Part shown: one piece after another, positions 14,129 through 46,012 of the stretch
How the letters are laid out: each line of letters opens with the position of its first letter
Position numbering within the stretch: the first letter of the stretch is position 1
From: Gracilaria domingensis
Taxonomy: Eukaryota; Rhodophyta; Florideophyceae; Gracilariales; Gracilariaceae
Reading direction: 5' to 3'
Assembly (NCBI GenBank): GCA_022539475.1
Contig: VCMS01000100.1
Coordinates: 251,195-315,194 of the forward strand
Length of the DNA: 64,000 nt
Made by a program: the position numbers and the translations under genes
Notes under the pieces: model-generated
What the model was told of the DNA's origin: nothing
The model's input: only the letters and a program-made list of their open reading frames with translations
The model's database searches: none

Positions 14129-15784
14129 CTAGTTTTTGGCGAGGGTCGTCCAGTACATTTTATGAGAAAATATCGAGATCAATTATTTCAAAATTTAGAG
14201 ATAATTGCTTGGGTCGTCCAGAATCGCTGTGCAGTAAATACTGGTGGGTTTTCCACTCGTGCTAGTTCTTTAGCCGAGGGCTACCTGAACGGTATTCCGC
14301 GAAGTCTACGTTCAGTTTCCATTAAGGTGCACATTACACGATACCTTCTGCGGAATGATACCCTGCAACGCATGGAATACTGGTGCTAGTACAGATGATG
14401 CCCATTATGAAATCTTACCGTTTTATTCGTATCTATTCTTCTATCGACCGCTTTTGCTAAGCCCTACTTCGCTATATTACATGTACCATTTCCCCGTGAT
14501 GAAGCGGGTGTAGGCGCAATCTGCGCCAGCTGCCGCAGACTGCACCTCCACCAAAGCGCGGTATCGGTAGAACACATACGCACTCCGAGAGTATGAGGCG
14601 CGGAGCGCCTCCTCCTCTCCGTTCCTCAAGTAGGGAACCATGCCCAGATGCATGGTTCCCTACTTGAGGAACTTGCACCTGCAACTCGTGAGCTACGTCC
14701 GCATCAAAAGTCATTTACCTGTATACTCAAGCAGAAAGTATCCATAAGTTAGTCAATGCTCCGTTGGACACATTTGAAATGCGATGGAACGTACCATTAG
14801 TAAAGCAAAACAAAAACGTTGCGCTAGAAAAGTCGAGGGACCTAGTAACTCGCAAAAGGAAGAAGAAGAAGGAACGGGATCGGTTAGATTACCAGCAATC
14901 CATTCATCTTAAAATGCGATCGAAGCGAGAAATCACAAGCAACGACATCAAGGTTGCCCATACAGCAAACATACCGCAATTTCCCCTAAAAACTTGCACC
15001 TGCAACTCGTGAGCTACGTCCGCATCGAAAGTCATTTACCTGTATACGTAAGCAGAAAGTATCCATAATTTAGTCAATGCTCTATTGGATACATTTGAAA
15101 TGCGATGAAACGTACCATTGATAAAGCAAAACAGAAACGTTGCGCCGAGTAACTCGCAAAAGTAACCCAAAGCTTATTTCCTGCCGTTTACATGTCGCAA
15201 AGCGCGAAGAAACGTGGTGAGGATTGGTTGGTTTAAAACAGAGATACCTAGAAGAATATGGAAGAACGTACGAGAAGACTGCACGGAATACATCCGTGAG
15301 ATACGGATGATGTCCGCTTTATGGAGGCATCCATTAGGCGGAAGCGTACCTCATTCTCTTTCCCGCCCTCTACTTCGTAGCGAGTGCGAGGGCGGAGAAA
15401 GGTACGACGGAGAGGAGTAGAACGCAAGGATGTGGATGGCACGGATCACGACGGTAACGGTAGGTCGGACGCCGGAGGCGCGGCGGCGGCGGCGGCGGAG
15501 GGAAGAGATTTATTTTTCTGTGCGAGGTTGGACAGCTGTACAGCGTACAACGTTGCGAAGCGACAGGCTTATAACCAGTGGTAGATAATACGAGAAGTAC
15601 ACCCTTCTGTTGAGGTCGACGTGTACCTACGTTCCTTTTCGAACGAAAGCACGTGATTTAAACTCAAAATATATTCTCCGCTCTCAGCTTGACGTCAAAC
15701 TTGACTGTCTCCCGACCTCCTTCTCCCTTCCGACGGCCTTCTTTTGCCGTCTTTGTCGTCTTTTCTCCTTCATTTCTTCTTCCC
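14129..15784. repeat. Left copy: element end region with hairpin and internal direct repeat
   Basis: The end region contains a perfect hairpin, a 156-bp direct duplication (14670-14825 and 14991-15145, about 95% alike by eye) and repeated GGGTCGTCCAG motifs near the outer end (about 14150 and 14213). A GGC/GGA-rich tract lies at 15470-15500. The matching region of the right copy is 44187-46012 but has only one copy of the 156-bp unit. No gene is supported here. Confidence 0.65.
14622..14671. repeat. Perfect hairpin, 22-bp arms
   Basis: Arms 14622-14643 and 14650-14671 are exact reverse complements around a 6-base loop (CCAGAT). The right copy keeps the same hairpin at 45445-45488 with 19-bp arms. 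Conservation in a rapidly diverging non-coding region suggests a role in transposition or replication of the element; this is inference. Confidence 0.85.
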
Positions 15785-18700
15785 CTGGACTACTACTGTA
15801 CACATAAGAAGCGTGGTTGTCCGTTCGTTACTCGCCGAAGAGTCTTATCTCTTCAACAGCATGTCAACCATTGCCCGTTTCGTCTGAAAGCCGCGCTGGA
15901 AGACGACAATAGGCGGCTCAATCGAGGAAGCAAGCGTCTCAAGCTTTCCGCGCCCGCGCCCGCATCTTCCGGAACGGTCACTGCCTCTTGTCGCCTTCCC
16001 GAGCCTCCGGTGTCCCAGGACATCGTTGACACCACTCAGTGCGCCCCTCCTACTCCGGAAACTTCGCATTGTGTTTCTCCTTCCCCGGGTCGCGCGGCAT
16101 TAGAGCGAGAACACGGAAGCAGTTCCCGCCCAGTGCCTTCTGAGGAGGCCCTCGCTGACTTGTGTATGGATTATCTCACGGTTTGTCTGGCTTCAGTAGC
16201 TTCCAACCTCGGTCATCGTGAAGCAGACGAGCTAATTGGGCTACCTCGGGACCCGCTATTCTCGCAAAAGCGATTCAACGACACCATTACAAGTTCCAAG
16301 CGCTGTACAGAACTGAAGAACGCCATTTTCGAACGATACGCCTCAAAGGAGGGTTTCAATCGAAGAACTGTCTCGCCAGAAGGATGTAAGTTCAGCGCCA
16401 CCCTCTACACGAGAGACCCCGTTCAGACACTTGTGAAACAGCTCCAGTTGGCTAACAACAAAAACACATTCTTCCACCCTATACCTCAGACCCACTCCAC
16501 GAAAATATCTCACCCCATGTCCGGCTCTCTCGCAAGAGACGCCACCTCAAAACTTAAGGAAATGGTCATGGGCTCTTTGGATAGTAGAATAGTGTGGTAC
16601 TCCCAAGAAATAAGTTACAGTGAATCTTTCGTAGGTCTTCTGCAGGTATACACCGATAAGTCTTCAACAACTCTAAAGCAAACATCGGTTACCGCCTGTC
16701 CTCTTCACCTCATAGTTCTCAACTTCTCCGACGAGCTACGCCGTAAGTGCATCCGTGATCACCTCACAGAATGGGCATACTTCCCTACCACACTGATCGA
16801 GGTTTTCGCATCTGAAGCAGACGCAATGCCATTCGTTTCTAGCAAGTCTCTACGCCAGTCCAGGATGCAAATCCTTCAAGAATCTCTTCGTCAAGTCCTG
16901 GAGCCCATTCTAAATCTCAGGCAGAAAGGTTTTCAGTTCATCGGCGAAGACAAACTAGGTCGAGTGTGCCATCCTCTGCCTGCAAGTTATTTTGCGGATA
17001 TTCCTGAGGCTGAGGACATTCTGTCCATTCTTCATGGGACCAAAACGAAAAGCCCGTTTCATAGATGCAAAGCCCATCGCTCATCTTTATGATGTCCTGT
17101 CACCTCATTCCACGGACGTTCTCAGAAGCACACGAAAAGCATCCGAAAGACATACACAGCTATCTTACAACATGCACAAAGAGACGAGGCGGAAAGAAGT
17201 CCACGTCGTGCAAGGGAAAGGAGATCTCAGGTGGATACTCTGATGTGCTCAAATTCCATATCTCTCATTCCTTCGTTCCTCGAAACTTCCGTAAGCCTTG
17301 AAATGATCCCGGGATTGTCTCCATACAGTCTGTTCTCATTCGAACCATTACAGAACTTGCATCTCGGCATCTCGAAGCTGATAAAAACGGCCGCAATCGA
17401 GAGATTGCAGTCAGACACCCTGTGCACCACAATAGAAACATCTTCATCGCGTTCATTTCGAACGATGTGCATCCAACTCCTCAACCATGCAAACGCAATT
17501 CTAGCTGCTATAGAACGAGATTCTCCTGCCAAAGGTTTACATATCGACTTCTCCACGCAGGAGAAAGGCAAATCTTTGAATGGTATCTTCACGAAAGACG
17601 GTCTCCGTGGAATGCTGGAGGCCAAAAACTACAAAGCGCTTGACATGGTCTTCCCCTTCATAGGAGCATTCTTTGACATATGTTGTGGGGAACAGGACGT
17701 TGCCCCAATCACAACCGTCTTCTCTCAGTACTCCGACTTGCTTTCGACCTTATTCAGATACAATCGTGACCCGTATTGGACCGAAAGCTCTCTCCTGTGT
17801 CTTAGTTAGCAGATTGAAGCCTTCAGGCTTTCCGCAACAAAGAATCTGGCGGATTTTCATCCCTTCAGAATGAGAACTCTGAAGTTTCATCTTCTCGATC
17901 ATCTCGTGGACGATATTCGCCGTCTGGGAAGTATCAAGTACTACGACGCAGACATATACGAACATGCACACCTGCTATTTAAGAGACACAACAAAAAGAC
18001 GTCCAGAAGAACATCAACGGCTGTGGAGGAGAGTATTCGCTCTATTGAGCACGGACATGTTAGAAAGCAATTGAATGGCAGTACTCCTTACCAGCGTAAT
18101 CCAGGTTTACCAGGAACTTCCACACAGCTCTCTCGATTTGCAATGAGAGGGCGTTCTTTCACTTTACGAGCTCTTCAACATTGTGTTTCAAGTATATCCA
18201 GTTCAGAAACATGGACTACTGTTAGAGAGATGCTCTAAAGTACGGACACAAGGTCGATTCTTGACCAAATTGGTGAACAGGCCCTTCCTCCTTTCCTCAG
18301 TGTCGTGAAAGAAACACTGGATGAGCACTCTATTACATACTTCCCAGAAAAGACAAGGATAACTCTGGTGAATTCGGCCCTCGTGAAAGGCGGTTTCGTT
18401 CCGACTCTTGAACACTTCGATTCGTCTTCTAAGGCACTTAAGCTGGGACGACCCAAATACCCCATCATCCAACGAGTTTTCGCTTCCCCATCATTTGGTT
18501 CTAATAGAAAGCCAAAGTTTTCCACTGTATTGGTAAGCGGAGAAGATTCAGAGACTTGGGTTGCCCAGGTGGTCGCTCTAATTCGAATATCTCTCCTTGA
18601 TTCTGCACTCACCGCACCAGAGGTGGCATTCGTCCGGTATTTCGAGGTTTTACCCCCCGCAACAAACATCGACCACATATTGAAATGCATATCTTTACGG

Positions 18701-18937
18701 TGGGCTACAAACAATGAAAAGAACCACACTCTTCCGTTCTCTCGTCATTCCAAAGCGGAGACTATCGTAGAGTTAACTCCTTGGTACGGGATGGTTCCGG
18801 CTTCTGCACTACAAGAAACTGTCCATGTTATTCGATCAAACTACCCTGCTCCACCTTTTTGTCCTCCACTTCAATGGTTTCAACACCGATTCTACATCAA
18901 TCGAATCTATCATGATTCAGATGAAGGACCAACTTAG
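15785..18937 (+). pseudogene. T: zinc-finger transposase-like protein, left copy, with in-frame stops
   Basis: The frame runs 1051 codons. At the N-terminus is a Cys/His cluster (YYCTHKKRGCPF, then HVNHC), likely a zinc finger, followed by a basic low-complexity linker. The middle contains FEPLQNLHLGISKLIKT (about 17335-17390), a motif type I associate with large plant and algal transposases, but I cannot name the superfamily. The initiator is CTG here; the right copy has ATG at the same place. Three stops (TGA 17090-17092, TAG 17807-17809, TAA 18236-18238) interrupt the frame, with no frameshift. The first two lie where the right copy has sense codons; the right copy does not reach the third. 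It converges with gene B. Confidence 0.6.
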
Positions 18938-18957: not shown

Positions 18958-21355
18958 TTAAACATTAAGGGCTCCATCCTCTACATGTTCATCTTGTGGT
19001 GCCTTTTCTCGTGACCCTGCGCTACTTCCGAAATCGTTCATGTCCATTTCCTTGACTTCCATATCCCTTTCCTTGCATTCACCAACGAAACAATCGCTAA
19101 TATATCCCAATCTTCGGCTCACACTGTCAATAAAAAATTGTTCCTTCACAGTGAGGTAAAGTCTTCCGTTCGACGGCATTCGATATCCAAATGTAACCTC
19201 TCTCATGTCATTACCAAGAACCTTAGTCCAATCTTCCGTTGTCGTTCCATAATTATGAAACTCGCTGGAATTGGTCTTCAAGACATGTTGCCTTACATCC
19301 CCCAGAACATTCTTTAAACACAGAGATAGCAGTTGGGCAAACTTCTTTGTAAACAGTTTCTCTCTCTGTCTCTGGCCACCCCTTGACACATCCGTACTTA
19401 GAAGGTTCACAACCGTCACCACCCAAGCGTCCAAACCTGCGAGCAACAGTATTGTGCCATCTAAAAAGATGCCCGTATCCTTGTCTTCCACATCATACCC
19501 AATAAACTCCTTCAGTACTTGTACCGCGACACGGTTTCGGAAGAACAAGTCTTGATCTTCCGTCGGCATATCCTCCACATTGTCCGCAGCGGAGTACTTT
19601 AGACGAACAAATGGGGCTTTTCTCCACCATGAAGTGTTCGGTACACAATTTTAGTCGAGACGAAGTATGTTCTCCTGCGCTTCCTTGAACTGCATTGTGA
19701 GTTCGTCAGCATTCTCTTCTACCAGCTTTGTTCTTCTTCAAATCAGATTGTACCCCGGGAGCGGAAATAGTTTATCCCTCGTATTTCTCTTCCGAACGCC
19801 CACGACGTCACTCATGGTCTGCCGCATTCTCTGCCTAAGGCACATATCTGCACAAAGTTCCAGTATACACCTGTCGGTAAGAGACGCTTTTCTAATACCT
19901 TGCCAGCTCAACTCCTTCAACTCACTTTCAACCATTTTCTTCAGCAAAGCATCTGGCTCCCCTCTACCGACGGTGTGAACATGCCAAAACTGCCCAAGAG
20001 CTCCACGGGGTTTTAAGGATCCATGTATGAATCACCTTCCTCCGGCTCAATAAGTCCTTCCCCACTCTCAGTTGCGTCTTCCACCTTCTCGGCACGGTTA
20101 CGCCAATTTCGGGTGAGCGACTCACCTTCGAGCCATAGCTCACATGTTTCTCTCCTTGCCCACGTCAGCATGTTGTGATACACTGCTCGAGCAACCCCTC
20201 GAAACTCGTCGCACACCTCAATTTTATGCTTCTCTCGACCTGTCTGCCCAGGTTCACCAGCACGTGTACTCCTATCTCTCTCCTGTTTCAGTGCCCCCGT
20301 TAGCCCTTCAATGACTAGATCCTTCTCCTCAAGCCTCTTTTTCAAAGCCGTACTCTGCTCTTGGGCGACCTTCACTAGAATAGCCCGAACCATTAAGTCC
20401 TCTTGTAGCGTCTTAACCTTTTCTTTCAAGCAATTCACTTCATTTAAAAGATCAGGTCTGTTCATAGAGCTTGAATTCACACCAGTTTGGATATCTTCCG
20501 TTATTTCCCTAGCTTCTTCGGCGACAGGCCCCGGTAATGCCGCAGGATTCGGTGTTATTTCGTTATCGGAACTATCCTCATGTGACATAGCCTTAGCCAC
20601 GAGAGGCTGCAGGCGTTCTGTGTCCACCCTTGGCACGGCTCCGAGCTCCAACTCCCGTGTCTGTCCTCCTCCATGGCATGGTATATCAGATGAATTGGGC
20701 CTCGTACGAGCTGCAACGGCCCCCGCTCTGGAAAGAGGGGAAGGTCGAAAAGTAACTCGTCTATCAGTTGTCTCTCGATTTCTTATTGTCTTTCTCCCTT
20801 GTCCAGACCCATTGCGAGGCATGATACGATTCATAGCGGCCCCAGTTCTAGAAGACAGGGATGGACGTGACGATCTTAATATACTAGGGCTCTCACGACT
20901 TCTCGTCATTGTCCCTTGTTGTCCAGATCCACTGGGCGGCGTAACCCGCGCCCCAGTAGCTCCGGTCTTCGATATTGGCCGGGGACAAGAAGGTTTTAGT
21001 GTCATACGAACCTCTTCAGTTCCAGTTGTCATGCCCTCCTGTCCTGAACCGCTGGGCCGAGTTACCTCATATTCTTGACGAGCAGAGACAGATGCACGAT
21101 TTGCATTATCGGCAGTTGACGGCACGACATCGTTCGCTGATCCACGAATTCTTGACGCAATCCCGGAAGACACTCCGCTGCGGAATGGGCGAGAGAGTAC
21201 TGTAGAAGGAGGCCCACTGACTCTCTCCTTCGTCGAAGACGACTTCCGTTTAGGAAGTGCGGTGCTTGTAGCCTGATTCGTATCATCCGATGCTCTTCTC
21301 TTCTTCTGTCCACTCTCCGCTCCGTACTATTTCGCTTTCTCGGCGTTATACTCAT
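18958..21355 (-). pseudogene. B: charged coiled-coil protein of unknown role, left copy
   Basis: The N-terminus (ATG at 21355, MSITPRKRNST) is followed by a 4-nt loss relative to the right copy that shifts the frame. The next long segment (21173-20013) has repeated R-P-S-G-S-G-Q motifs, a disordered Ser/Arg-rich region and a leucine-rich coiled coil around 20290-20460. After another frame change near 20015 it runs to 18958 with two internal stops (near 19738 and 19640). The C-terminal part is compact and mixed in composition. I recognise no domain. It is tail to tail with T and lies 248 nt downstream of the SET gene. It could be a DNA-binding accessory subunit, but that is a guess. Confidence 0.5.
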
Positions 21356-21602: not shown

Positions 21603-22325
21603 CTATTGCTCCAATGTGAGAGCCCAGTCCCAGGCATACTGCTCTCCGTAGTGGAAATAAAACTCTTCGCCCCTCTCAATATCTCTTACTGCTCTACAAC
21701 GAAGTAGGGCATAGTTAGAAAGGTCGGACTTACAGTGTATCACGGACTTTGCTTCCACCATCTGCACATTGGCACTTCGAGTCCTGTTCGACCGGGGCTG
21801 CGAGAAATCGGGATCCCCGGCATGATATCCAGCGTCGTTAATGTAGCCCCCGATACAAATAGGCGCCGGGAAAATGTAGAATTCGCTCTCCTTTCTATCC
21901 TGAGCCTGTCCTAGTCTGTTCCTCAGGTGCAGAAACGAACCAGTCACAGTGACCATCATAGAAAACAACTTGTACCGCACAGAAGTAGCTCCGAGACAGT
22001 CACTTCCATACGTTAAGTGTCTTTCCTTCCGGTTTGTCGGATCCGTGTATACCAAAGTTCCATAAAAGTGACAGATAGTTTCCCCAGCCAATATCTTATG
22101 TTCCGTGAATACCCCCATACCAGCACGGGGATGTCGAATCTTAGAAGATGCTACATGTAAGCGATAGCGATTGGCTTCAACAGTCAACAGCATATGCATA
22201 TCCATTAGATTCAGAGCTCCTCGGTACTTCTCGTCCCAAAGATCTACAGTATGCTGTCCATACTTGTCGACAAACTCCCAGTCCCTCCAGTATCTTCCTA
22301 GGAACTGAGTAATATGTGCAGGCAT
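21603..22325 (-). CDS. SET-domain protein, left copy
   Basis: 240 residues from the ATG at 22325. SET-family features: GMGVF at residues 69-73 with a following GETICHFYG (AdoMet-side strand), YIN at 161-163 and SANV at 184-187 in the place of the usual NHS and PN motifs, and GEE with YGEQYAW at 219-232 near the C-terminus. SET proteins methylate lysines, mostly on histones. The usual NH pair is IND here, so activity is uncertain. The frame is the same as that of the methyltransferase just upstream, separated by a single TGA and an open linker of 16 codons, so this may be the C-terminal half of one polypeptide. It is open in both copies, about 93% identical between them. Confidence 0.75.
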   Translation of the reverse strand: MPAHITQFLGRYWRDWEFVDKYGQHTVDLWDEKYRGALNLMDMHMLLTVEANRYRLHVASSKIRHPRAGMGVFTEHKILAGETICHFYGTLVYTDPTNRKERHLTYGSDCLGATSVRYKLFSMMVTVTGSFLHLRNRLGQAQDRKESEFYIFPAPICIGGYINDAGYHAGDPDFSQPRSNRTRSANVQMVEAKSVIHCKSDLSNYALLRCRAVRDIERGEEFYFHYGEQYAWDWALTLEQ

Positions 22326-22373
22326 CACTTGGTACTGGGGATATCCAAATGGAGCCTCCAATTCAAGCCGACC

Positions 22374-24737
22374 TCAGTCCCGATGTGGAACCCGTTCATA
22401 AGTCGTTGAAGCAGCATCCACCATCTCCTGTTCAACCACGATGTCATTCTTCCCCCCGCGAAGAACTTCGGCCATAAGAGTCGTTATACGGAGCTTCGCA
22501 TGGCTGAAACATGGCCTATTCTTCTCGCACCCCAAGAACTTCCTATGCTTTGTCAGCGATAGGCATGCCATACCCGTAGAAAAAGTTCCGGCGAACATGT
22601 CCATGACAAGATCACCCGGTCTTGTGAACCGACATATCAACTCTTTCATCAACTCCCTGGACTTCTGCTCCGGTCTTATGTACTGCCCAATTGGTACTGA
22701 ACTACCTGGCTCATTTACCTTCCATGTCAACCACTCCCCCGCTCTCGGTTTCGGCACCGGGTCAATTACATTCCTGTTAGCCGGGAAAGTAGAAGGAATG
22801 AAATGGTTCTCGTCAAATGGAGTAAGACTGGCTTCCTCCGATGGTCGCAATCCACGCTTCACCCCATGAATGGCGTATTCCGTTACGGGCCGTATCCCAA
22901 ACTTCCGTGGATTCCCGCCAACATTACTTCCATCCCGGATGAACACCAGTGGATTCCCATCCACTTTAAACGAAGGCATGAGTTCTGGCTTACCTTCGCT
23001 TCCAGCGTCATCTTTTGTACTCGCCGTTTCCGAGAGTATCCTGTGCCAAACATTAAACTGTGCAATGGCACAGAATTGAATGAAGTGCCCACCTGACCGA
23101 AGCGCGGAACTTATTAAATCTGCCGTACTGATCATGTCATCCTCACTGAAGACATCATGAGCACTATTCCGTTTGCTCCTCTTCTTTCGAGTGTTAAAGA
23201 GAGGGTCTGTTAGGACAAGCTGTGCCTCACCCCATACAATCTCACTCTGATTCACAAATGTTTCATTTGTGTGCCTCAGGTCCTTCATGTCACAGTTGTA
23301 CCCAACAAAGTGTGACTTTCTCATCTTCTTCCACACCTTGTCCATATTCATTCGAAGGAGACTGGATATCCTCTTCATAGGCGGCTCAATACCTGTCTTT
23401 TGGATGTTGTACCCGGCAACCCGAGATTTTTGCTCCGCACGATTCACCGGCTTCTCGAAGTCGTCGCTATCGGAGCTCACGAGGTCCATATACTCTCGAC
23501 GAGGTGGGGGTGGGGCAGACTTGGTCGAAGAAGGTTCGGCATTACCGGAAGTTTTAGAAGTTTTCGTCAGTTCAATATCGTGTTTCGCGTGAATGCCCAC
23601 ATTGAACTCTGCCGCATGGCGCATATCCTGTATCGGTTTCCATAGCAACTCCGAAAAGTTCTGAAATCGTGCAGGCAACTCACGGGAGTCAGAACCAGAT
23701 ACGGTATCCATCCGTATCTCCGAAAACTCTATCCAGTTCCTCATCTCATCAATTCGTAAGCTGTAGAGGCTATCGTTGGGGCATATGGTTTCGAAGTCTG
23801 TCAAAAATTCCTTAGCCAGTACTCGGAGGTTTGTATCGCATTCATCACTCAAGGTCTCCACCGATCCACTAGTACTGCTCTGTGGCACATCTTGTGTGAT
23901 GAATCGAGTACTATGGCTTGGCGCGGCATAACGAGACTCCCGTGTCTCTAGCGCTGTATACTTCAAGGTCTGCATATTCATGCCTATGTATGGTTTCACC
24001 ATGTGCTGAACGTTCGTGTATCCAAGATGGGCCGCAAAAAAACTCCATGCCCATACGACCTCACTGGTAGCGAACCCCAGTCGATCACAGTTGTCTTTGG
24101 AGAACGACGTAAAAGTGGGTATGTGCACAGATGGTGCATGGTTCACTTTTTGTTTCTTTCTCGGTTGTTTCTTCTTCATCATCCTGATGTTGTCGTTCTC
24201 TCCCATTATGTGGCCAAGGTATGATAAGCATATAACGACCTCAAATAGGTTCACAGCTGTTGGTGGGATGACCATTGTCGTCTTCAGAACCTGCATTTTC
24301 TTGGTCATGAAATAACCAACACGGCATCGCACCGGTAGGTATATACCCATATCCATAGAGAGAAGGAAATAATCGCGGAGTCTCTTGTCCTCATCCCCGT
24401 CCTTCTTATCAAGAAGCTTCGTTACAAGATATCGTTGCTCCACAGGTTTGTTATTGACAACACTCTTTCGCAGCTGTTGCAGTGTCACGTTCTGCAGGTT
24501 CTTGAGGTTAGTGGCCTTCTCAAACATCTTCCTCGCCTCCGGAATATTCTTATAGTTCTCGGCGCAGAGCTCTATTAGCCCTCCAAACCCGATGTCCCGT
24601 GGCCGATCAGGGCCTCCATCGCTCTTTGCCAAAGCATCGCGAAGAACCAAGAAAAGTCTGACATACGCATCGAACGCTGAAGGCGGAGCACTCATGTCGA
24701 TAAGATGTATCTCCTCTCTATCATCGGTGCAATCCAT
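22374..24737 (-). CDS. DNA amino-methyltransferase (N6-adenine or N4-cytosine type), left copy
   Basis: 787 residues, intact. The catalytic domain is C-terminal. Motif IV appears as LVLTDPLFNTR at about residue 507 (DPLF instead of the usual DPPY) and the AdoMet-binding motif as MDMFAGTFSTGMA at about 710. This IV-before-I order is typical of beta-class enzymes. GGHFIQFCA fits the strand after motif IV. The first 480 residues are of unknown function, with basic and Ser/Pro-rich linkers. The start lies in a good context (ACCATGG). A TTTAAA box lies about 36 nt upstream in the promoter core shared with gene P. Only 5 of 787 residues differ from the right copy. Target base is unknown. Confidence 0.78.
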   Translation of the reverse strand: MDCTDDREEIHLIDMSAPPSAFDAYVRLFLVLRDALAKSDGGPDRPRDIGFGGLIELCAENYKNIPEARKMFEKATNLKNLQNVTLQQLRKSVVNNKPVEQRYLVTKLLDKKDGDEDKRLRDYFLLSMDMGIYLPVRCRVGYFMTKKMQVLKTTMVIPPTAVNLFEVVICLSYLGHIMGENDNIRMMKKKQPRKKQKVNHAPSVHIPTFTSFSKDNCDRLGFATSEVVWAWSFFAAHLGYTNVQHMVKPYIGMNMQTLKYTALETRESRYAAPSHSTRFITQDVPQSSTSGSVETLSDECDTNLRVLAKEFLTDFETICPNDSLYSLRIDEMRNWIEFSEIRMDTVSGSDSRELPARFQNFSELLWKPIQDMRHAAEFNVGIHAKHDIELTKTSKTSGNAEPSSTKSAPPPPRREYMDLVSSDSDDFEKPVNRAEQKSRVAGYNIQKTGIEPPMKRISSLLRMNMDKVWKKMRKSHFVGYNCDMKDLRHTNETFVNQSEIVWGEAQLVLTDPLFNTRKKRSKRNSAHDVFSEDDMISTADLISSALRSGGHFIQFCAIAQFNVWHRILSETASTKDDAGSEGKPELMPSFKVDGNPLVFIRDGSNVGGNPRKFGIRPVTEYAIHGVKRGLRPSEEASLTPFDENHFIPSTFPANRNVIDPVPKPRAGEWLTWKVNEPGSSVPIGQYIRPEQKSRELMKELICRFTRPGDLVMDMFAGTFSTGMACLSLTKHRKFLGCEKNRPCFSHAKLRITTLMAEVLRGGKNDIVVEQEMVDAASTTYERVPHRD

Positions 24738-25849
24738 GGTTTAACCGCAAACAACGAAGGCGAGCCTTTAAATGGCGACTTACGCTGGAGACCGCCACTT
24801 TCGGCAGCTCCTGGCAGCGCACTGCCAGTCTCGTCCGTGTCCGTATCCGCTCGCTTCTGAGGTCGGTGTCCGTGCCGTTATGAGCGGGTGCGATAAAGTG
24901 GCGTGTCGGACACGTCGCGATTCGGAGCTATTGCAAAGGACGCGTATTGTGCTAACAGTCGGGGATCAAGTGGGTTCGAAGCGCTGGTTTTGTCTAGTTT
25001 GATGTATGTGCACGCCGTGTGGATCGAAATCACTTCCGAAAGTGCCAGGAGGATTGTCTTGGGAGGTCTCCGGAGGGTCTCAGAATGTGGCCAGAACGTG
25101 CCCGCGGGCGGAGGGGGGGGCCGTCAGTCGTGTTAGGGTAGCTACCCTAACACGACCGGACCCCCACGCCTGCGGTCATAAAATCGCACATTTTTCAAAA
25201 AAATCGCCCAAAACGTGCCCGCGGGCCCGGAGGGGGGGGGTCCGGTCGTGTTAGGGTAGCTACCCTAACACGACCGACCCCCCTCCCGCCCGCGGGCACG
25301 TTTTGGGCGATTTTTTGAAAAATGTGCGATTTTATGCCCGAGGGCCGAGGGCTCCGGTGCTGCTAGGGAAGCTACCCTAACCCGACCGCTCCCCCCCCCC
25401 CCCCCCGCTACCGCCCGCGGGCACGTTTCGGGCACATTCTGGCGCCTTCCCAGGACCTCCCAAAACACGCCCCCCCGCCGTGATTTTGTTACATCCGGCC
25501 GCCGGGACATTGGCGCCGCTGTCCACTTGTATTGGCGGGAGAAGGCTGTACATGAATGGGAATGAGTGTACTCTTGACTACTATAGAAAGAATTTGAAGA
25601 GCACGATTAGAGAGCGCGACCATTGCTCACGTGAGTTATCATTGCGCGAACTCCACGACTCTAAAGCGTACGATCATCGTGCGAGCGGCCACGGACAGGA
25701 CACGGACGAGACTGGCAGTGCGGTGGGAGCAGCTGCTGAAAGTGGGCGTGCCCAACGTAAGTCGACATTTAAAGGCTCTCTTCCGTTGTTGTATCGTCCA
25801 GAGCGAGCGTATTGTTGATATACACCTTTAGCTGCAATATCTGTTCAAC
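24738..25849. promoter_or_regulatory. Divergent promoter island with three palindromes, left copy
   Basis: This lies between the methyltransferase (minus) and gene P (plus). Two inverted copies of one promoter core occur at 24762-24848 and 25697-25778, each with a GACGAGACTGGCAGTGCG block and a CATTTAAAGGCTC box near the gene start. Between them are three palindromic cores centred at 25141/25142, 25259/25260 and about 25371. The first is a perfect 30-mer and the second a perfect 34-mer around TTAGGGTAGCTACCCTAA. The second sits at the middle of a nearly perfect 170-bp inverted repeat (25168-25337). Runs of G or C and repeated CCCGCGGGC accompany them. Confidence 0.8.
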
Positions 25850-36200: not shown

Positions 36201-37140
36201 CAACCATCCGGGAGTGATTAAAGTTCACCTTTAGAACCTTCTGACGAATTCATCTGTACGTCTTGCTCCAAGTAGGTGTCCCTTGTGTTCCAGACCGCTC
36301 GCCAGAAACACTTGAACGTGCCATTTTTGCGGACAGAAGCACAACGTCATCGTCTTGCTGCTCCGCAGTTTTTGGTGCAGTTTGGGGTACAGATGGACCA
36401 GCTCCTTGTGTGGATTGCGCATCCACGTCTGTAAGGGGACCTTTTATGATCTCATCTTCCTCTTCTTGCACAGCCGTCCCGTGCTGAACCGTCTGTTTCT
36501 ACGCAGAAGATCCCCTTGTGTCGATGGTCTGATTCATCGCAGGAGATGCCCTTCTCGACGCAGTGGGCTTCGTAGCGGAGGTAGACTTTGTTGGGCCTGT
36601 CCGCTTCGTAGCTGGGAATGATCTCGTATCCATAGTCCGCTTCGTAACAGAGTACGTATCGGCCCGCGGAGGTGCTACTGATGCGCTACCTCTCGGTGTT
36701 GATGAACTTCGAATTGGCTCCGTGCGGCTCGTCGGGGTCATCAACTCACTCATAGCGCTCACCGTTCGTCGCTTGGACGCCGGAATGCTGGCTGCCACCG
36801 GTTCCATCATTTTCTAATCCCAAGGAGCGGTCGTCCGGAGATTCTGGATGTATTTTGGAAGATCCAGGCCCTCCGTCCGGTAAGGGTAGAAAGTCTGACC
36901 GCTTCGACTGATGACAATATTATGGACCACCACAAGACCGGGGTCCAATTGCTTCCCGTTCAACTCGCGGCGTAGAACACTTCCAATTCCGTGCAACAAC
37001 GCTTCCCCGACTATCACCTTTCCTTCATTCTCAATATCCATCTGCAGAGAAACCCGCATTCCACCTTGCAATGATCGAGTGCTCCGCCGAGTGCGAGGAG
37101 TCACGCTTTGCGTACGCCTTCGGACACGGGTTGGCTTCAT
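33254..37140 (-). pseudogene. P: ParB-like plus 2OG-Fe(II) oxygenase-like gene, right copy, with stops
   Basis: From ATG 37140 one frame runs to 35779, then a second single frame runs from 35804 to 33254. Parts in order: a disordered basic N-terminus; a ParB/sulfiredoxin-like domain at about 36180-35780 with NLLRGVSKRQVEALLKSM and FIVDGLHRLKD; a helical region; an acidic linker; a double-stranded beta-helix domain with QTLHTDFSG (iron His and Asp, about 33788) and GDVTHAGAS (second His, about 33560); and an acidic tail. Stops at 36814, 36499, 36250, 34554, 34527 and 33429 and one frame change near 35790 break it. The left copy has GAG where 36814 is TAG. The frame change could instead be an unseen intron (TTTTGCAG precedes it). 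A link to TET/JBP-type DNA oxidases is plausible but unproven. Confidence 0.6.
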
Positions 37141-38257: not shown

Positions 38258-40621
38258 ATGGATTGCACCGATGATAGAGAGGAGATACATCTTATCGACA
38301 TGAGTGCTCCGCCTTCAGCGTTCGATGCGTATGTCAGACTTTTCTTGGTTCTTCGCGATGCTTTGGCAAAGAGCGATGGAGGCCCTGATCGGCCACGGGA
38401 CATCGGGTTTGGAGGGCTAATAGAGTTCTGCGCCGAGAACTATAAGAATATTCCGGAGGCGAGGAAGATGTTTGAGAAGGCCACTAACCTCAAGAACCTG
38501 CAGAACGTGACACTGCAACAGCTGCGAAAGAGTGTTGTCAATAACAAACCTGTGGAGCAACGATATCTTGTAACGAAGCTTCTTGATAAGAAGGACGGGG
38601 ATGAGGACAAGAGACTCCGCGATTATTTCCTTCTCTCTATGGATATGGGTATATACCTACCGGTGCGATGCCGTGTTGGTTATTTCATGACCAGGAAAAT
38701 GCAGGTTCTGAAGACGACAATGGTCATCCCACCAACAGCTGTGAACCTATTTGAGGTCGTTATATGCTTATCATACCTTGGCCACATAATGGGAGAGAAC
38801 GACAACATCAGGATGATGAAGAAGAAACAACCGAGAAAGAAACAAAAAGTGAACCATGCACCATCTGTGCACATACCCACTTTTACGTCGTTCTCCAAAG
38901 ACAACTGTGATCGACTGGGGTTCGCTACCAGTGAGGTCGTATGGGCATGGAGTTTTTTTGCGGCTCATCTTGGATACACGAACGTTCAGCACATGGTGAA
39001 ACCATACATAGGCATGAATATGCAGACCTTGAAGTATACAGCGCTAGAGACACGGGAGTCTCGTTATGCCGCGCCAAGCCATAGTACTCGATTCATCACA
39101 CAAGATGTGCCACAGAGCAGTACTAGTGGATCGGTGGAGACCTTGAGTGATGAATGCGATACAAACCTCCGAGTACTGGCTAAGGAATTTTTGACAGACT
39201 TCGAAACCATATGCCCCAACGATAGCCTCTACAGCTTACGAATTGATGAGATGAGGAACTGGATAGAGTTTTCGGAGATACGGATGGATACCGTATCTGG
39301 TTCTGACTCCCGTGAGTTGCCTGCACGATTTCAGAACTTTTCGGAGTTGCTATGGAAACCGATACAGGATATGCGCCATGCGGCAGAGTTCAATGTGGGC
39401 ATTCACGCGAAACACGATATTGAACTGACGAAAACTTCTAAAACTTCCGGTAATGCCGAACCTTCTTCGACCAAGTCTGCCCCACCCCCACCTCGTCGAG
39501 AGTATATGGACCTCGTGAGCTCCGATAGCGACGACTTCGAGAAGCCGGTGAATCGTGCGGAGCAAAAATCTCGGGTTGCCGGGTACAACATCCAAAAGAC
39601 AGGTATTGAGCCGCCTATGAAGAGGATATCCAGTCTCCTTCGAATGAATATGGACAAGGTGTGGAAGAAGATGAGAAAGTCACACTTTGTTGGGTACAAC
39701 TGTGACATGAAGGACCTGAGGCACACAAATGAAACATTTGTGAATCAGAGTGAGATTGTATGGGGTGAGGCACAGCTTGTCCTAACAGACCCTCTCTTTA
39801 ACACTCGAAAGAAGAGGAGCAAACGGAATAGTGCTCATGATGTCTTCAGTGAGGATGACATGATCAGTACGGCAGATTTAATAAGTTCCGCGCTTCGGTC
39901 AGGTGGGCACTTCATTCAATTCTGTGCCATTGCACAGTTTAATGTTTGGCACAGGATACTCTCGGAAACGGCGAGTACAAAAGATGACGCTGGAAGCGAA
40001 GGTAAGCCAAAACTCATGCCTTCGTTTAAAGTGGATGGGAATCCACTGGTGTTCATCCGGGATGGAAGTAATGTTGGCGGGAATCCACGGAAGTTTGGGA
40101 TACGGCCCGTAACGGAATACGCCATTCATGGGGTGAAGCGTGGATTGCGACCATCGGAGGAAGCCAGTCTTACTCCATTTGACGAGAACCATTTCATTCC
40201 TTCTACTTTCCCGGCTAACAGGAATGTAATTGACCCGGTGCCGAAACCGAGAGCGGGGGAGTGGTTGACATGGAAGGTAAATGAGCCAGGTAGTTCAGTA
40301 CCAATTGGGCAGTACATAAGACCGGAGCAGAAGTCCAGGGAGTTGATGAAAGAATTGATATGTCGGTTCACAAGACCGGGTGATCTTGTCATGGACATGT
40401 TCGCGGGAACTTTTTCTACGGGTATGGCATGCCTATCGCTGACAAAGCATATGAAGTTCTTGGGGTGCGAGAAGAATAGGCCATGTTTCAGCCATGCGAA
40501 GCTCCGTATAACGACTCTTATGGCCGAAGTTCTTCGCGGGGGGAAGAATGACATCGTGGTTGAACAGGAGGTGGTGGATGCTGCTTCAACGACTTATGAA
40601 CGGGTTCCACATCGGGATTGA
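38258..40621 (+). CDS. DNA amino-methyltransferase (N6-adenine or N4-cytosine type), right copy
   Basis: 787 residues, intact, same motifs as the left copy: TDPLFNTR at about residue 510 and MDMFAGTFSTG at about 711. The five residue differences are L/F in the N-terminal domain, K/R, E/K, R/M just after the AdoMet motif, and M/V near the end. Both copies keep the unusual DPLF motif, so it is ancestral rather than a mutation of one copy. The gene ends with TGA at 40619-40621; the same frame stays open into the SET gene. Expression would start from the promoter core at 38151-38233. Confidence 0.78.
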   Translation: MDCTDDREEIHLIDMSAPPSAFDAYVRLFLVLRDALAKSDGGPDRPRDIGFGGLIEFCAENYKNIPEARKMFEKATNLKNLQNVTLQQLRKSVVNNKPVEQRYLVTKLLDKKDGDEDKRLRDYFLLSMDMGIYLPVRCRVGYFMTRKMQVLKTTMVIPPTAVNLFEVVICLSYLGHIMGENDNIRMMKKKQPRKKQKVNHAPSVHIPTFTSFSKDNCDRLGFATSEVVWAWSFFAAHLGYTNVQHMVKPYIGMNMQTLKYTALETRESRYAAPSHSTRFITQDVPQSSTSGSVETLSDECDTNLRVLAKEFLTDFETICPNDSLYSLRIDEMRNWIEFSEIRMDTVSGSDSRELPARFQNFSELLWKPIQDMRHAAEFNVGIHAKHDIELTKTSKTSGNAEPSSTKSAPPPPRREYMDLVSSDSDDFEKPVNRAEQKSRVAGYNIQKTGIEPPMKRISSLLRMNMDKVWKKMRKSHFVGYNCDMKDLRHTNETFVNQSEIVWGEAQLVLTDPLFNTRKKRSKRNSAHDVFSEDDMISTADLISSALRSGGHFIQFCAIAQFNVWHRILSETASTKDDAGSEGKPKLMPSFKVDGNPLVFIRDGSNVGGNPRKFGIRPVTEYAIHGVKRGLRPSEEASLTPFDENHFIPSTFPANRNVIDPVPKPRAGEWLTWKVNEPGSSVPIGQYIRPEQKSRELMKELICRFTRPGDLVMDMFAGTFSTGMACLSLTKHMKFLGCEKNRPCFSHAKLRITTLMAEVLRGGKNDIVVEQEVVDAASTTYERVPHRD

Positions 40622-40669
40622 GGTCGGCTTGAATGGGAGGCTCCATTTGGATATCTCCAGTACCAAGTG

Positions 40670-41392
40670 ATGCCTGCACATATCACTCAGTTCCTAGGAA
40701 GATACTGGAAGGCCTGGGAGTTTGTCGACAAGTATGGACAGCATACTGTAGATCTTTGGGACGAGAAGTACCGAGGAGCTCTGAATCTAATGGATATGCA
40801 TATGCTGTTGACTGTTGAAGCCAATCGCTATCGCTTACATGTAGCATCTTCTAAGATTCGACATCCCCGTGCTGGTATGGGGGTATTCACCGAACATAAG
40901 ATATTGGCTGGGGGAACTATCTGTCATTTTTATGGAACTTTGGTATACACGGATCCGACAAACCGGAAGGAAAGACACTTAACGTATGGAAGTGACTGTC
41001 TCGGAGCTACTCCTGTGCGGTACAAGTTGTTTTCTATGATGGTCACTGTGACTGGTTCGTTTCTGCACCTGAGGAACAGACTAGAACAGGCTCAGGATAG
41101 AAAGGAGAGCGAAGTCTACATTTTCGCGGCGCCTGTTTGTATCGGGGGCTACATTAACGACGCTGGATATCATGCCGGGGATCCCGATTTCTCGCAGCCC
41201 CGGTCGAACAGGACTCGAAGTGCCAATGTGCAGATGGTGGAAGCAAAGTCAGTGATACAGTTTAATTCCGACCTTTCTAACTATGCCCTACTTCGTTGTA
41301 GAGCAGTAAGAGATGTTGGGAGGAGCGAAGAGTTGTATTTGAACTACGGAGAGCAGTATGCCTGGAACTGGGCTCTCACATTGGAGCAATAG
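40670..41392 (+). CDS. SET-domain protein, right copy
   Basis: 240 residues from ATG 40670, 48 nt after the methyltransferase stop and in its frame. It keeps GMGVF, YIN, SANV and YGEQYAW. About 17 residues differ from the left copy. GERGEEFYFHYG in the left copy corresponds to VGRSEELYLNYG here, and H-C-K to Q-F-N in the region before the last strand. The NYG form is closer to ordinary SET proteins, so this copy may be nearer the ancestral state at that site. Very short spacing and shared frame mean it needs either reinitiation, its own transcript, or TGA read-through. Confidence 0.74.
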   Translation: MPAHITQFLGRYWKAWEFVDKYGQHTVDLWDEKYRGALNLMDMHMLLTVEANRYRLHVASSKIRHPRAGMGVFTEHKILAGGTICHFYGTLVYTDPTNRKERHLTYGSDCLGATPVRYKLFSMMVTVTGSFLHLRNRLEQAQDRKESEVYIFAAPVCIGGYINDAGYHAGDPDFSQPRSNRTRSANVQMVEAKSVIQFNSDLSNYALLRCRAVRDVGRSEELYLNYGEQYAWNWALTLEQ

Positions 41393-41638
41393 ATGAGTGC
41401 AGTACCGAGTAGAAAGTAAATATGCTTGTGAATGTTGCAGCTGCCTGCAATACGCGTTGTACATGTACGATGGAGCCCTTCATCTATTTGTAACGGCGAT
41501 ATTTGCGACCCATTGGGCACCTCAAATTCCTAAAAAGCAGGAACTGCGGAGTCTCCCGGAATATCTGAACCATGCACCCCCCCCACCCCCTCCCACCCCC
41601 GAAAAAATTCGTTTCATTACCCCGTTTATCTCCACAAC

Positions 41639-41966
41639 ATGGGTATAACGCCGAAAGAGCGAAATAGTACGCAGCAGAACAAGAGTGGACAGAAGAAGAG
41701 AAGAGCATCGGATGATACAAATCAGGCTACAAGCACCGCACTTCCTGAACGGAAGTCGTCCTCGACGAAGGAGGGAGTCAGTGGGCGTCCTTCTACAGTA
41801 CTCTCTCGCCCATCTCGCAGCGGAGTGTCTTCCGGGATTGCCTCAAAAATTCGTGGATCAGCGAACGATGTAGTGCCGTCAACTACCGATAATGCAAATC
41901 GTGCATCTCTCTCTGCTCCCCAAGAAGATGAGGTAACTCGGCCAAGCGGGACAGGACAAGAGGGCA
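41639..41966 (+). pseudogene. B: N-terminal fragment, right copy
   Basis: Starts at ATG 41639 (MGITPKERNSTQQNKSGQKK) and matches the left copy's gene B for about 108 codons before the deletion junction near 41966. It shows the undamaged N-terminal frame that the left copy lost through a 4-nt deletion. The remaining 600 or so codons of B are missing. Confidence 0.6.
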
Positions 41967-44186
41967 CGTCTTTTTGTAGTGTCTCTTAAATAGCAGGTGT
42001 GAATGTTCGTATATGCCTGCGTCGTAGTACTTGATACTTCCCAGACGGCAAATATCGTCCACGAGATGATCGAGAAGATGAAACTTCAGAGTTCCCAGTC
42101 TGGAGGGATGAAAATCCGCCAGAGTCTTTGGTGCGGAACGTTTGAAGGCTTCAATCTCCGAACTAAGACAGAGGAGAGAGCTTTCAGTCCAATGCGGGTC
42201 ACGATTGTATCTGAATAAGGTCGAAAGCAAGTCCGAGTACTGAGAGAAAACGGTTGTGATTGGGGCAACGTCCTGTTCTCCACAGCAAACGTCAAAGAAT
42301 GCTCCTATGAAGGGGAAGAACATGTCAAGTGCTTTGTAGTTTTTGGCCTCCAGCATTCCACGGAGACCGTCTTTCGTGAAGATACCATTCAAAGATTTGC
42401 CTTTCTCCTGTGTGGAGAAATCGATATGTAAACCTTTGGCAGGAGAATCTCGTTCTATAGCAGCTAGAATTGCGTTTGCATGGTTGAGGAGTTGGGTGCG
42501 TATCGTTCGAAATGAACGCGATGCAGATGTTCCCATTGTGGTGCACAGGGTGTCTGACTGCAGTCTCTGGACTGTGGCCGTTTTTATCAGCTTCGAGATG
42601 CCGAGATGCAAGTTCTGTAATGGTTCGAATGAGAATAGACTGTATGGAGACAATCCCGGGATCATTCCAAGGCTTACGGAAGTTTCGAGGAAGGAAGGAA
42701 TGAGAGATATGGAATTTGAGCGCATCAGAGTATCCACCTGAGATCTCCTCTCCCTTGCACGACGTGAACTTCTTTGCGCCTCTTCTATTTGTGCATGATG
42801 TAAGATAGCTCTGTATGTCTTTCGGATGCGTTTCGTGTGCTTTTGAGAACGTCCGTGGAATGAGGTGGGAACAGGACTGCATAAAGATGAGCAAGGGGCT
42901 TTGCATCTATGACACGGGCTTTCCCTTTTGGTCCCATCAAGAGTGAACAGAAAGTCCTTAGCCACAGGAATATCCGCACAATAACTTGCAAGCAGAGGAT
43001 AGCACACTCGACTCAGTTTGTCTTCGCCGATGAACTGAAAACCTTTCTGCGTGAGATTTAGAATGGGCTCCAGGATTTGACGAAGAGATTCTTGAAGGAT
43101 TTACATCCTGGACTCGCGTAGAGACTTGCTAGAAACGAATGGCATTGCGTCTGTTTCAGATGCGAAAACCTCGATCAGTGTGGTAGGGAAGTATGCCCAT
43201 TCTGTGAGGTCATCACGGATGCACTTACGGCGTAGGTCATTGGAGAGGTTGAGAGAGATGAGCTGAAGAGGATAGGGGGTAATCGATGTTTGCTTTAGAG
43301 TTGTCGAAAACTTATCGGTGTATACCCGCAGAAGACCTACGAAAGATTCACTGCAACTTATTTCTTAGAAGTACCACACTATTCTACAATCCAAAGAGCC
43401 CATGACCATTTCCTCAAGTTTCGAGGTGGCGTCTCTTGCGAGAGAGCCGGACATGGGGTGAGATATTTTCGTGGAATGGGTCGGAGGTATAGGGCGGAAG
43501 AATGTGCTTTCGTTGTTAGCCAACTGGAGCTGTTTCACAAGGGCCTGAACGAGGTCTCTCGTGTAGAGGATGGCGCTGAACTTAAATCCTTCTGGCGAGA
43601 CAGTTCTTCGATTGAAACCGTCCTTTGAGGCGTATCGTTCGAAAATGGCGTTCTTTAGTTCTGTACAGCGCTTGGAACTTGTTATGGTCTCGTTGAATCG
43701 CTTTTGCGAGAATCGTGCGTCCCCAAGTAGCCCAAGTAGCTCGTCTGCCTCACGATGACCAAGGTTGGAAGCTTCTGAAGCCAGACAAACCGTGAGATAA
43801 TCCATATGCAAATCACCGAGGGCCTCCTCAGAAGGCACTGGGCGGCAACTGCTTCTGTGTTCTCGCTCTAATGCCGCGGGAACCGGGAAAAGAGAAACAC
43901 AATGCGAAGTTTCCGGAGTGAGAGGGGCGCACGGAATGAGGTCAACGATTTCCTGGGACACCGGAGGCTCGGGAAGGCGACAAGAGGCAGTGACCGTTCC
44001 GGAAGATGCGGGCGCGGGCGCGGAAAGCTTGATACGCTTGCTTCCTCGATTGAGCCGCCTATTGTCGCATTCCAGCGCGGGTTTCAGACGAAACGGGCAA
44101 TGGTTGACATGCTGTTGAAGAGATAACACTCTTCGGCGAGTAACGAACGGGCACCCACGCTTCTTATGTGTACAGTAGTAGACCAT
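41967..44186 (-). pseudogene. T: transposase-like gene, right copy, 3'-truncated
   Basis: Starts at ATG 44186 (MVYYCTHKKRGCPF) and keeps the zinc-finger-like N-terminus and the FEPLQNLHLGISKLIKT motif (about 42630). TAA at about 43365 and TAA near 43107 interrupt the frame. In both cases the left copy has CAA, so these are C-to-T changes. The gene is cut off after HLLFKRHYKKT by the deletion at about 41966. It is about 87% identical to the left copy over the first 270 residues by eye, much lower than the methyltransferase. Confidence 0.58.
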
Positions 44187-46012
44187 GGGAAGAAAAAATG
44201 CAGGAGAAAAGACCACAAAGACGGCAAAAAATGGTCGTAAAAGGGGAGAAAGAGGTCGTGCGACAGTCAAATTCGACGTCAAGCTGAGAACGGAGAATAT
44301 ATTTTGAGTTTAAATCACGTGCTTTCGTTCAAAAAGGAACGTAGGTACACGTCGACCCCAACACAAGGGTGTACTTCTCGCATTACCTACCACTCGTTAT
44401 GAACCTGTGGTTTCGCAACGTTGTACGATGTACACCTGTCCAATCTCGCACAGAAAAATAAATCTCTTCCCTCCGCCTCCGCCGCCGCGCCTCCGACGTC
44501 CGACCTTCCGTTACCGTCGTGAACCGTGCCATCTACATCCTCGCGTTATACTCCGCTCCGTCCTACTTTTCTTTGCCCTCTACTTTATGAAGCCCCCATA
44601 AAGCGGAAATCATCCGTATCTCACGGATGTATTCCGTGCAGTCTTTTCGTACGTTCTTCCATATCATTCTTCCTATCTTCGCTCTAAACTAACCAATCCT
44701 CACCACATTTCTTCGCGCGCTGTGACATGTAAACGGCAGAAAATAAGCTTTGGGTTACCGAATTCCCGTTTTGACCCTTTAACTCATTCTATTTCGTCAA
44801 GAAGGTACTACTTTCTTGAATAAATAGAACGAGTTGAAGGATGAAAATAGTAACCCTTCGGGTTAGTAACCACTCTTTGACGTGCGTCCCTTCTATTTCT
44901 TCCGATGGTCACGAAGACTGTAATTACGCGACCAATAGTTCACTTCGTAGCGCTATAGGCTCTAGCTTCTCGCGTATTGCGCTACTTTTGGTTTGTTGGC
45001 GATCTTGGTTGACTGGCTTTTTCGGGATAGGCGATTCTCAGAATCGCCTATCCCGCAAGCCAGTCAACCAAGATCACCAGGCTGGTAACTTGGTTAGGAC
45101 ATAGGCTGCTCTCTCGTTTATGGCATCTTGCGGTATGTTTGCTGTGTGGGCATTCTTGGTGTCCTTGCTTGTGAGTTCTCGCTTCGACACCTTTCGAGCT
45201 TTACGATGAATGGATTGTTGGTAATCTAACCGATCCCTTTCCTTCTTCTTCTTCCTCTTGCGAGGTACTAGGTCCCTCGACTATTCTAGCGCAACGTTTT
45301 TGTTTTTCTTTATCAATGGTACGTTCCATCGCATTTCAAATGTATCTGGCGGAGCATTGACTAAGTTATGGATACTTTCTGCTTACGTATACAGTTAAAT
45401 GACTTTTGATGCGGATGTAGCTCACGAGTTGCAGGTGCAAGTTTCTCAAGTAGGGAACCATGCATCTGGGCATGGTTCCCTACTTGAGGAACCGAGAGAA
45501 TGAGGCGTTTCGCGTCCCATCCTCTCGGAGTGCGTATGTGTCCTGCCGATACCGCACTTTGGTGCAGGTGCAGTCTGCGGCAGCTGCCGCAGATTGCAAC
45601 TACTCCCGTTCCATCATGGGGAAATGGTAAATGTAATATAGCGAAGTATTGGTTAGCAAAAGCGGTCGATAGAAGAATAGATATGAATAGAACGGTATGA
45701 TTTCATATTGGACATCATCTGTACTAGCATCAGTATTCCATGCGTTGCAGGGTATCATTCCGCAGAAGGTATCGTGTAATGTGCAGCTTAATGGAAACAG
45801 AACCTAGACTTGACGAAATACCGTTCAGGTAGCCCTCGACTAAAGAAATAGCACGAGTGGAAAAACTACCAGTATTTACTGCACAGCGATTCTGGACGAC
45901 CCAAGCAATTATCTCCAAATTTTGAAATGATGATATCCATATTTTTTTCGAAAAATTTACCGGACGACCCTTGCCACTTTTCTGGACGACTCTTGCCAAA
46001 AACTAGCATCTG
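44187..46012. repeat. Right copy: element end region with hairpins
   Basis: Holds the conserved hairpin at 45445-45488 (19-bp arms, 6-base loop) and a second, right-copy-only inverted repeat at 45001-45075 whose arms contain GGGATAGGCGATTC. GTCGTCC motifs recur near the outer end (about 45907, 45965 and 45985). Homology with the left copy ends at 46012. No gene is supported. Confidence 0.65.

Follow-up and report, generated by a model that had tools for sequence, protein, structure and literature searches.

The locus described here, on contig VCMS01000100.1 of the red alga Gracilaria domingensis, raises the question whether an inverted pair of gene clusters that includes a DNA methyltransferase (MTase) and a SET-domain protein belongs to a mobile element that manages its own chromatin, or whether it consists of ordinary host genes that were duplicated by chance. 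The stretch analysed (the window) comprises 64,000 nt and all positions are coordinates of this window. Comparisons across the genome (77.9 Mb, 680 contigs) favour, as the full explanation and with a probability that we place somewhat above even, a multicopy Plavaka-type cut-and-paste transposon whose MTase-SET protein would mark the element's own chromatin. By Plavaka we mean no more than that the transposase belongs to this family. The main new point is that the MTase and SET domains share one reading frame elsewhere in the genome, where they form a fusion of 1045 amino acids (aa).

Element Boundaries and Copy Number

The initial annotation had described two mirror-image copies of a large mobile element at 14129..46012. 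Self-comparison of the window bears out the pair, with inverted arms at 14137-26412 and 36578-45976 that are about 90-98% identical by blocks and include one ungapped 3.7-kb stretch at 99%; alignment with ends from other contigs places its outer ends at 14110 and 46025 instead. The right copy (26409-46025) has both termini, and the left copy (14110-26408) ends where the right copy starts; the window thus holds one element that is truncated where a second, inverted element begins. The two kinds of end are called T-side and P-side, after the transposase gene T and gene P. The T-side terminus of the left copy is located at 14110..14132 on the plus strand (TGTCTGTCTCTTTCAGATGCTAG) and that of the right copy at 46003..46025 on the minus strand, and the two bases outside the outer ends are AT at 14110 and AT at 46025. 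The P-side terminus of the right copy (26409..26429, plus strand; CGTCTGTGTTCTGCAAAGTGG) has one match in the window.

Both ends are abundant in the genome. The sequences CGTCTGTCTCTTGCAG... and CGTCTGTGTTCTGCAA... gave 550 and 561 matches and their controls none. In these searches, which allowed at most one mismatch, the T-side query GTCTGTCTCTTGCAGATG had 294 + 256 matches (reversed control 0) and the P-side query GTCTGTGTTCTGCAAAGTGG 276 + 285 (control 0). The T-side break, CGTCTGTCTCTTGCAGATGCTAG, falls at the identical point, within two bases, in 22 of 22 aligned ends (20 from other contigs and the two of the window). The first 40 bases inside this point are on average 97% identical (lowest pair 85%), while the 100 bases outside are on average 25% identical (highest pair 37%). 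Pairing of the ends was studied with exact matches among the first 100 listed per end on contigs C1-C60, for which seven of the 100 T-end places, lying beyond C60, were dropped. Inward-facing neighbours within 30 kb consisted of one T-end and one P-end in 46 of 48 cases, and outward-facing neighbours were mixed in 11 of 18. Because the two different termini pair in 46/48, the inverted pair is ruled out as the basic unit. That role falls to the single element, which measures about 22.6 kb. Among the listed matches, inward-facing pairs fall into size groups of 10.1-10.8 kb (13 pairs), 13.4-14.9 kb (11 pairs) and 22.3-22.9 kb (5 pairs), and the terminal inverted repeats are imperfect (CGTCTGT...ACAGACG).

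Flanks were read for 18 T-P pairs, chosen by size from the lists and thus non-random, and a 2-bp target site duplication (TSD) was present in nine of them, where about one is expected by chance. All six pairs of 10.3-10.8 kb had it, with a chance of about 1 in 16 for each. The large mobile element of the initial annotation is therefore upheld by shared termini, a Plavaka transposase, multiple copies and 2-bp duplications in the shorter classes.

The Transposase

Gene T is broken in both copies. The left copy (15662..18937, plus strand) consists of the open reading frames (ORFs) 15662-17092, 17093-17809 and 18239-18937, of which the first matched the Plavaka family PF18759 (E 2.2e-11; 44.0 bits, cut-off 26.3) and the others had no match. 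The right copy (41883..44309, minus strand) consists of ORFs 43365-44309 and 41883-43100; only the latter was scanned and it matched PF18759 just under the cut-off of 26.3 (E 6.9e-6, 26.0 bits). Fungal KDZ elements with their link to TET/JBP genes had been named as the nearest precedent. No KDZ transposase was found, as Plavaka was the only Pfam family that matched the scanned T ORFs at E <= 0.1, so that KDZ membership does not stand. The link to TET/JBP does stand, by way of the Plavaka group: one study describes TET/JBP-bearing fungal transposons that include PlavakaB of Agaricales, and places Plavaka with EnSpm-like elements, not with KDZ, with TSDs of 2-3 bp (PMC12730594). The 2-bp TSDs of the shorter classes fall within this range. 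The termini CGTCTGT..ACAGACG fit neither of the fungal Plavaka subgroups given there, of which A has TGT..ACA and B has CATCA..TGATG (PMC12730594).

Gene Content and Order across Copies

The genome searches scored the best candidates only and co-location counts are therefore lower bounds. T was scored at 89 places out of 1324 candidates and P at 112 out of 658, and the MTase was considered at 57 places, the window's two copies included and a 58th match, an N-terminal fragment on C81, dropped. At no fewer than 21 of the 57 places (about one expected by chance) a divergent P is found 3.1-5.2 kb upstream of the MTase, and at none does it lie downstream within 12 kb. T lies convergently, 1.2-5.5 kb downstream, at seven or more of the 57 (again about one expected), and upstream at one. 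An order in which P and MTase-SET diverge and T converges from downstream thus recurs in the genome; several loci have the same gene order together with the common terminal sequence, as the initial annotation had predicted for a mobile element, and within this genome its prediction holds.

One copy, C34:184904-207547, was read end to end. It has both termini and several broken frames, and it encodes in order a coiled-coil protein, a 415-aa ORF, two HAD-type proteins, P (minus), MTase-SET (plus), gene B (plus) and T (minus). Seven loci carry T and P at 11.1-11.8 kb from each other, and in the part of the stretch that was read, MTase-SET sequence lies between them in 7/7. Two shorter forms were also read inside. 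In the copy on C6 (21.3 kb, flanked by the duplication TC/TC), T adjoins P directly, and MTase-SET and B are missing. A second copy, of 10.5 kb (L068, flanked by TA/TA), likewise lacks MTase-SET; it retains T, the two termini, remnants of P and parts of the sequence that precedes the MTase in the large form. Internal deletion from the large form is the best reading for both; the other copies of 10.3-10.8 kb were read at their ends only. The C6 copy also holds an LTR-type retrotransposon with gag-pol-like frames (by eye) between terminus and transposase (364-7680 of L090).

In the window, T, MTase and SET are common to both copies, as initially annotated, and P and an entire gene B are not. The ParB/2OG-like part of P occurs once (33429-36249), since the left copy is cut short at the start of the right copy. 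Gene B, a predicted coiled-coil protein without Pfam match, is whole only in the left copy (18958..21326, minus strand; ORFs 20013-21326 and 18958-19650), because the right arm lacks 3 kb equivalent to 18003-21031 and retains a single remnant ORF of the gene (41534..41989, plus strand). The corresponding stretch of the C34 copy has frames of 247 and 513 aa. An unusual junction was seen at another locus (L023 9537-9603, on C359), where the end of gene B and a P-side terminus are linked by a 67-bp palindrome.

The MTase-SET Fusion

The right copy encodes the MTase part at 38258..40621 and the SET part at 40622..41392, both on the plus strand and in one frame that is split by a single stop at codon 788. 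Residues 506-741 match N6_N4_Mtase (PF01555, E 2.1e-11) and the second part matches SET (PF00856, E 8.8e-5). In the left copy the MTase part lies at 22374..24737 and the SET part at 21603..22373, both on the minus strand, the latter within the inverted arm that is 99% identical to the right SET ORF; in other copies this part is in frame with the MTase. The junction codon is a sense codon in 11/11 plus-strand loci outside the window, and one non-window copy (L003) runs through 1045 aa without a stop and matches both PF01555 (E 3.8e-15) and PF00856 (E 1.7e-7).

Motif IV of the MTase part reads DPPF in 23 of the 25 non-window copies read, against DPLF in both copies of the window, and motif I (D.F.G.FST) is present in 24 of the 25. 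Motif IV precedes motif I, as in beta-class N6_N4 DNA methyltransferases. A motif IV of the DPPY/F type points to adenine. For the SET part, AGMGVF occurs in 19 and EELYF(N/D)YG in 21 of these 25 copies. SET-domain methyltransferases usually have GxG, NHS and EExxxxYG motifs; the GxG motif and the tyrosine of the C-terminal EExxxxYG are present, and the NHS position reads IND (by eye). Profile comparison with solved structures matched the adenine methylases DpnA, CcrM and MboIIA; the SET part gave weaker matches to EZH2 and SETD8 (E 3e-4 and above), with no single stretch passing alone.

A related fusion exists in a protein from an ENA contig (P0001), which is 41% identical over 97% and has both domains, a DPPY motif and both of the SET motifs counted above. 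A further protein (P0002) contains SET, and the part of it that can be aligned with the MTase is without the MTase motifs. We do not claim P0002 as a ParB domain fused to MTase-SET, as its best ParB-type match was PHROG_498 at E 0.24 and BLASTP of P0002 against P0005, a protein that resembles P, gave no common domain. A protein search with a three-sequence alignment scored nothing at E <= 0.001. The MTase also matched a phage-like profile (PHROG_67, E 1.8e-23). Phage MTases were rejected as donor, since they match the catalytic domain only, at 26-29% identity (best 15 of 75).

Gene P

Gene P in the right copy (33429..36249, minus strand) is broken into ORFs 33429-34526, 34554-35807 and 35779-36249, and C6 has a 1067-aa frame for it. 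Two proteins from public G. domingensis data are 88% and 94% identical to P over 71% of it. In the left copy only an N-terminal part remains (25832..26408, plus strand), where ORF 25832-26575 crosses the terminus of the right element at 26409; by eye, this part is similar to the N-terminal region of P in P0003 and to that of the P remnant in L068. The initial annotation of P as a ParB/2OG-oxygenase gene could not be upheld. Its ParB likeness consists of a weak match to PHROG_3264 (E 1.2e-4), which P0005 does not share, and single pieces of P and P0005 had no Pfam match to ParB or 2OG at a limit of E 10. No relevant sequence match in PDB was found for the 2OG-like part. P and P0005 have LHTDF, DVxHAG and RYHMY in common (by eye). 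Because relatives are few (3 sequences each), structure prediction of P and of MTase-SET failed and gave unusable models with a confidence (pLDDT) of 30-32.

Selection on the Element Genes

The ratio of non-synonymous to synonymous substitution (dN/dS) was lowest, among the regions compared, in the MTase domain (0.22-0.40). It was 0.43 for SET (codon-aligned) and 0.50-0.59 for the N-terminal part of MTase-SET; for this comparison 19 of 20 loci could be oriented and L018 was dropped. Values for P, T, B, the HAD-type genes and the coiled-coil gene come from 4-6 copies only and are rough, among them 1.37 for the first HAD-type gene and 1.02 for the ParB-like part of P. Judged by these ratios and its own lesions, the window pair appears to be a damaged offshoot of a family in which other copies have kept the enzyme under some selection.

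Proposed Role and Competing Explanations

In the explanation that we favour, the full form would be about 22.6 kb long with the terminal inverted repeats CGTCTGT...ACAGACG and with the 2-bp target duplications that are seen in the shorter classes. Its order would be coiled coil, 415-aa ORF, HAD and HAD, then P (leftward), MTase-SET and B (rightward), and finally T (leftward). The transposase, going by its family, would move the element. MTase-SET is predicted to methylate, as a single polypeptide, both DNA, probably at adenine-N6, and a protein lysine, probably of histones, so that both marks would be set on the same chromatin by one protein. P, divergent from MTase-SET, is the best candidate for a partner, which speculatively might read, place or oxidise the mark. 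Most likely, the element would mark its own copies and thereby evade or adjust silencing by the host, a role that has been proposed for TET-bearing fungal transposons. We thus infer, as the initial annotation did, an element that manages its own chromatin state. More tentatively, and with clearly less confidence, we suggest a single-chain double writer of DNA adenine and histone lysine with P possibly reading or removing the DNA mark, by which the element might impose its own heritable chromatin state and whose fusion would be old enough to persist at 41% identity in a second protein.

Several observations weigh against the favoured explanation. Firstly, the 2-bp duplication was found in 0/5 full-size pairs (22.3-22.9 kb), including the MTase-bearing copy on C34 (TT/TA), for which we have no explanation beyond age or rearrangement. 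No single element with MTase-SET was seen with a TSD: C6 and L068, the TSD-flanked copies read inside, both lack it, and because of this MTase-SET is not needed in cis. Secondly, an unbroken 1045-codon frame with both domains was found in only 4 of 17 non-window copies examined, and all seven MTase-SET copies between T and P have frame breaks, one of them with masked letters; some of these breaks may be assembly indels. The copies of the window itself look dead or damaged, with a stop between the domains and DPLF for DPPF. Thirdly, dN/dS of T is 0.66 in few copies, and therefore dead copies dilute the signal. Lastly, there is the faint ParB domain of P, its unsupported 2OG part and the low pLDDT of the models.

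The main rival takes up part of this evidence. It holds that MTase-SET, P, the HAD phosphatases and an epimerase are passenger genes of a large Plavaka element, without chromatin function and decaying. That a ribulose-phosphate 3-epimerase-like metabolic gene and HAD phosphatase-like genes ride along too would fit such a load, as would the ratios above one for the first HAD-type gene and the ParB-like part of P (few copies), the lack of MTase-SET in both TSD-flanked copies read inside and the broken state of most MTase-SET frames examined. The low dN/dS of the MTase, DPPF in 23 of the 25 non-window copies read and a fusion that is kept in P0001 speak against it, and we consider this rival rather unlikely. 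Far less probable is that a large DNA virus or a virophage-like element has integrated here, as the large size, the about eight genes and the phage-like MTase profile might suggest. Against it stand a Plavaka transposase with short terminal repeats and 2-bp TSDs, the fact that Pfam matched no capsid or polymerase in the 20 ORFs of the window that were scanned, and a search of viral contigs in IMG/VR that found no relative of MTase-SET. Ordinary host genes duplicated by a chance inversion, which the initial annotation had named as the finding that would overturn it, are suggested only by the inverted layout of the window and are refuted by the spread of the genes through the genome, with shared ends, at no fewer than 57 (MTase), 112 (P) and 89 (T) places.

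Comparison with Known Systems

Transposons are known that have a TET eraser, others a SET gene, and others again a cytosine methylase. Fungal Plavaka elements are similar in their transposase, their 2-bp TSD and their ability to carry a DNA-modification enzyme, and differ from the element described here, which has a red algal host, other termini and a length of about 22.6 kb with about eight genes (PMC12730594). The cargo of PlavakaB is an eraser (TET/JBP), whereas here it consists of writers, a DNA methylase fused to SET (PMC12730594). HarbingerS and oomycete MuDR elements are likewise DNA transposons with a SET histone-methyltransferase gene, but belong to other transposase families, and the accessible text mentions no fusion to a DNA methylase (cited in PMC12730594). 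DNMT retrotransposons of dinoflagellates and charophytes are mobile elements that encode their own DNA methyltransferase; unlike the enzyme described here, theirs are C5-cytosine enzymes carried by retrotransposons, and no SET fusion is mentioned in the part available (PMC5890265). N4CMT of bdelloid rotifers also fuses a bacterial-type beta-class N6_N4_MTase to a eukaryotic chromatin domain, but this domain is a chromodomain reader and not a SET writer, and N4CMT is a host gene that acts on transposons (PMC8885841). For the Plavaka giant repeats of Amoebidium hits in red algae are reported, but the cargo named is tyrosine recombinases and the accessible part has no mention of MTase-SET (PMC11244446). 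Among the records listed in searches of an open-access library of incomplete coverage, we found no account of an MTase-SET fusion in a transposon, nor of Plavaka in Gracilaria. If the favoured explanation is true, one transposon protein would physically couple adenine-type DNA methylation and a SET mark. Since many related copies with and without the writer share one genome, it would also offer a natural test of adenine methylation as a functional epigenetic mark in a multicellular eukaryote.

Origin of the Inverted Pair

How the two elements came to be joined is a separate question. The right element's P-side end (26409) interrupts P of the left copy, and arm comparison revealed no continuation of the left element from 46025 to the end of the window. 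One possibility is composite transposition: the outward-facing T-ends would have mobilised the entire inverted pair (31.9 kb) together, and the pair in the window would be the product. This would account together for the interruption of P, the missing continuation of the left element and the AT/AT flanks, which would fit a later joint move of the two copies; two bases are weak evidence, however, as they match by chance in 1/16 of cases. Neither of two other T-T pairs has matching flanks (0/2), and a nested insertion followed by deletion fits equally well. The genome was searched with both flanks and the empty site of the insertion was not found; for the right flank, as far as about 46258, the sole match was the flank itself. 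We regard composite transposition as plausible, at a little less than an even chance. The left flank (13510-14095) is part of a different multicopy repeat, most copies of which stop about 15 bp short of the insertion, and a further repeat starts at about 46258, right of the element.

The arms are not uniformly similar. The stretches 21460-25121 and 37874-41535 are 99% identical, against 89-97% for the remaining ungapped arm segments listed within the element. Because the MTase-SET arms are up to 99% identical and those of T about 91%, gene conversion within the inverted pair, or an uneven age of its parts, is suggested.

Other Genes of the Element and its Surroundings

Between the P-side terminus and P, the right copy encodes the coiled-coil gene of the element (26876..27805, minus strand), which has no Pfam match above cut-off and is 94-95% identical in the 10.5-kb copy, C6 and C34. 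The epimerase-like gene follows (28445..29152, minus strand; Pfam PF00834, E 3.3e-60). Its ORF in the window is full-length (28445-29224 region), and the stretch 28764-29224 is absent from 7/7 other copies that were read across this point; this suggests that the window's branch either predates the amplified family or is distinct from it. A plus-strand fragment at 30021..30509 corresponds to the ORF that is present as a 415-aa frame in C6 and C34. The first HAD-type phosphatase-like gene (31288..32010, plus strand) has no match itself, but its C34 copy matches Hydrolase_3 (E 4.3e-13). The second, a paralogue by eye (32063..33118, minus strand), matches Hydrolase_3 below the Pfam cut-off (E 0.0025).

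Outside the element, the window contains a second, unrelated inverted repeat pair (4743-5604 and 50657-51482, 74% identity), a relative of which abuts gene B on C465. A weak match to DDE_Tnp_4 lies at 426-899 (E 1.1e-4, below cut-off). To the right of the element, the region 56364-59427 encodes single-ORF genes for an APH-like phosphotransferase and a sulfotransferase.

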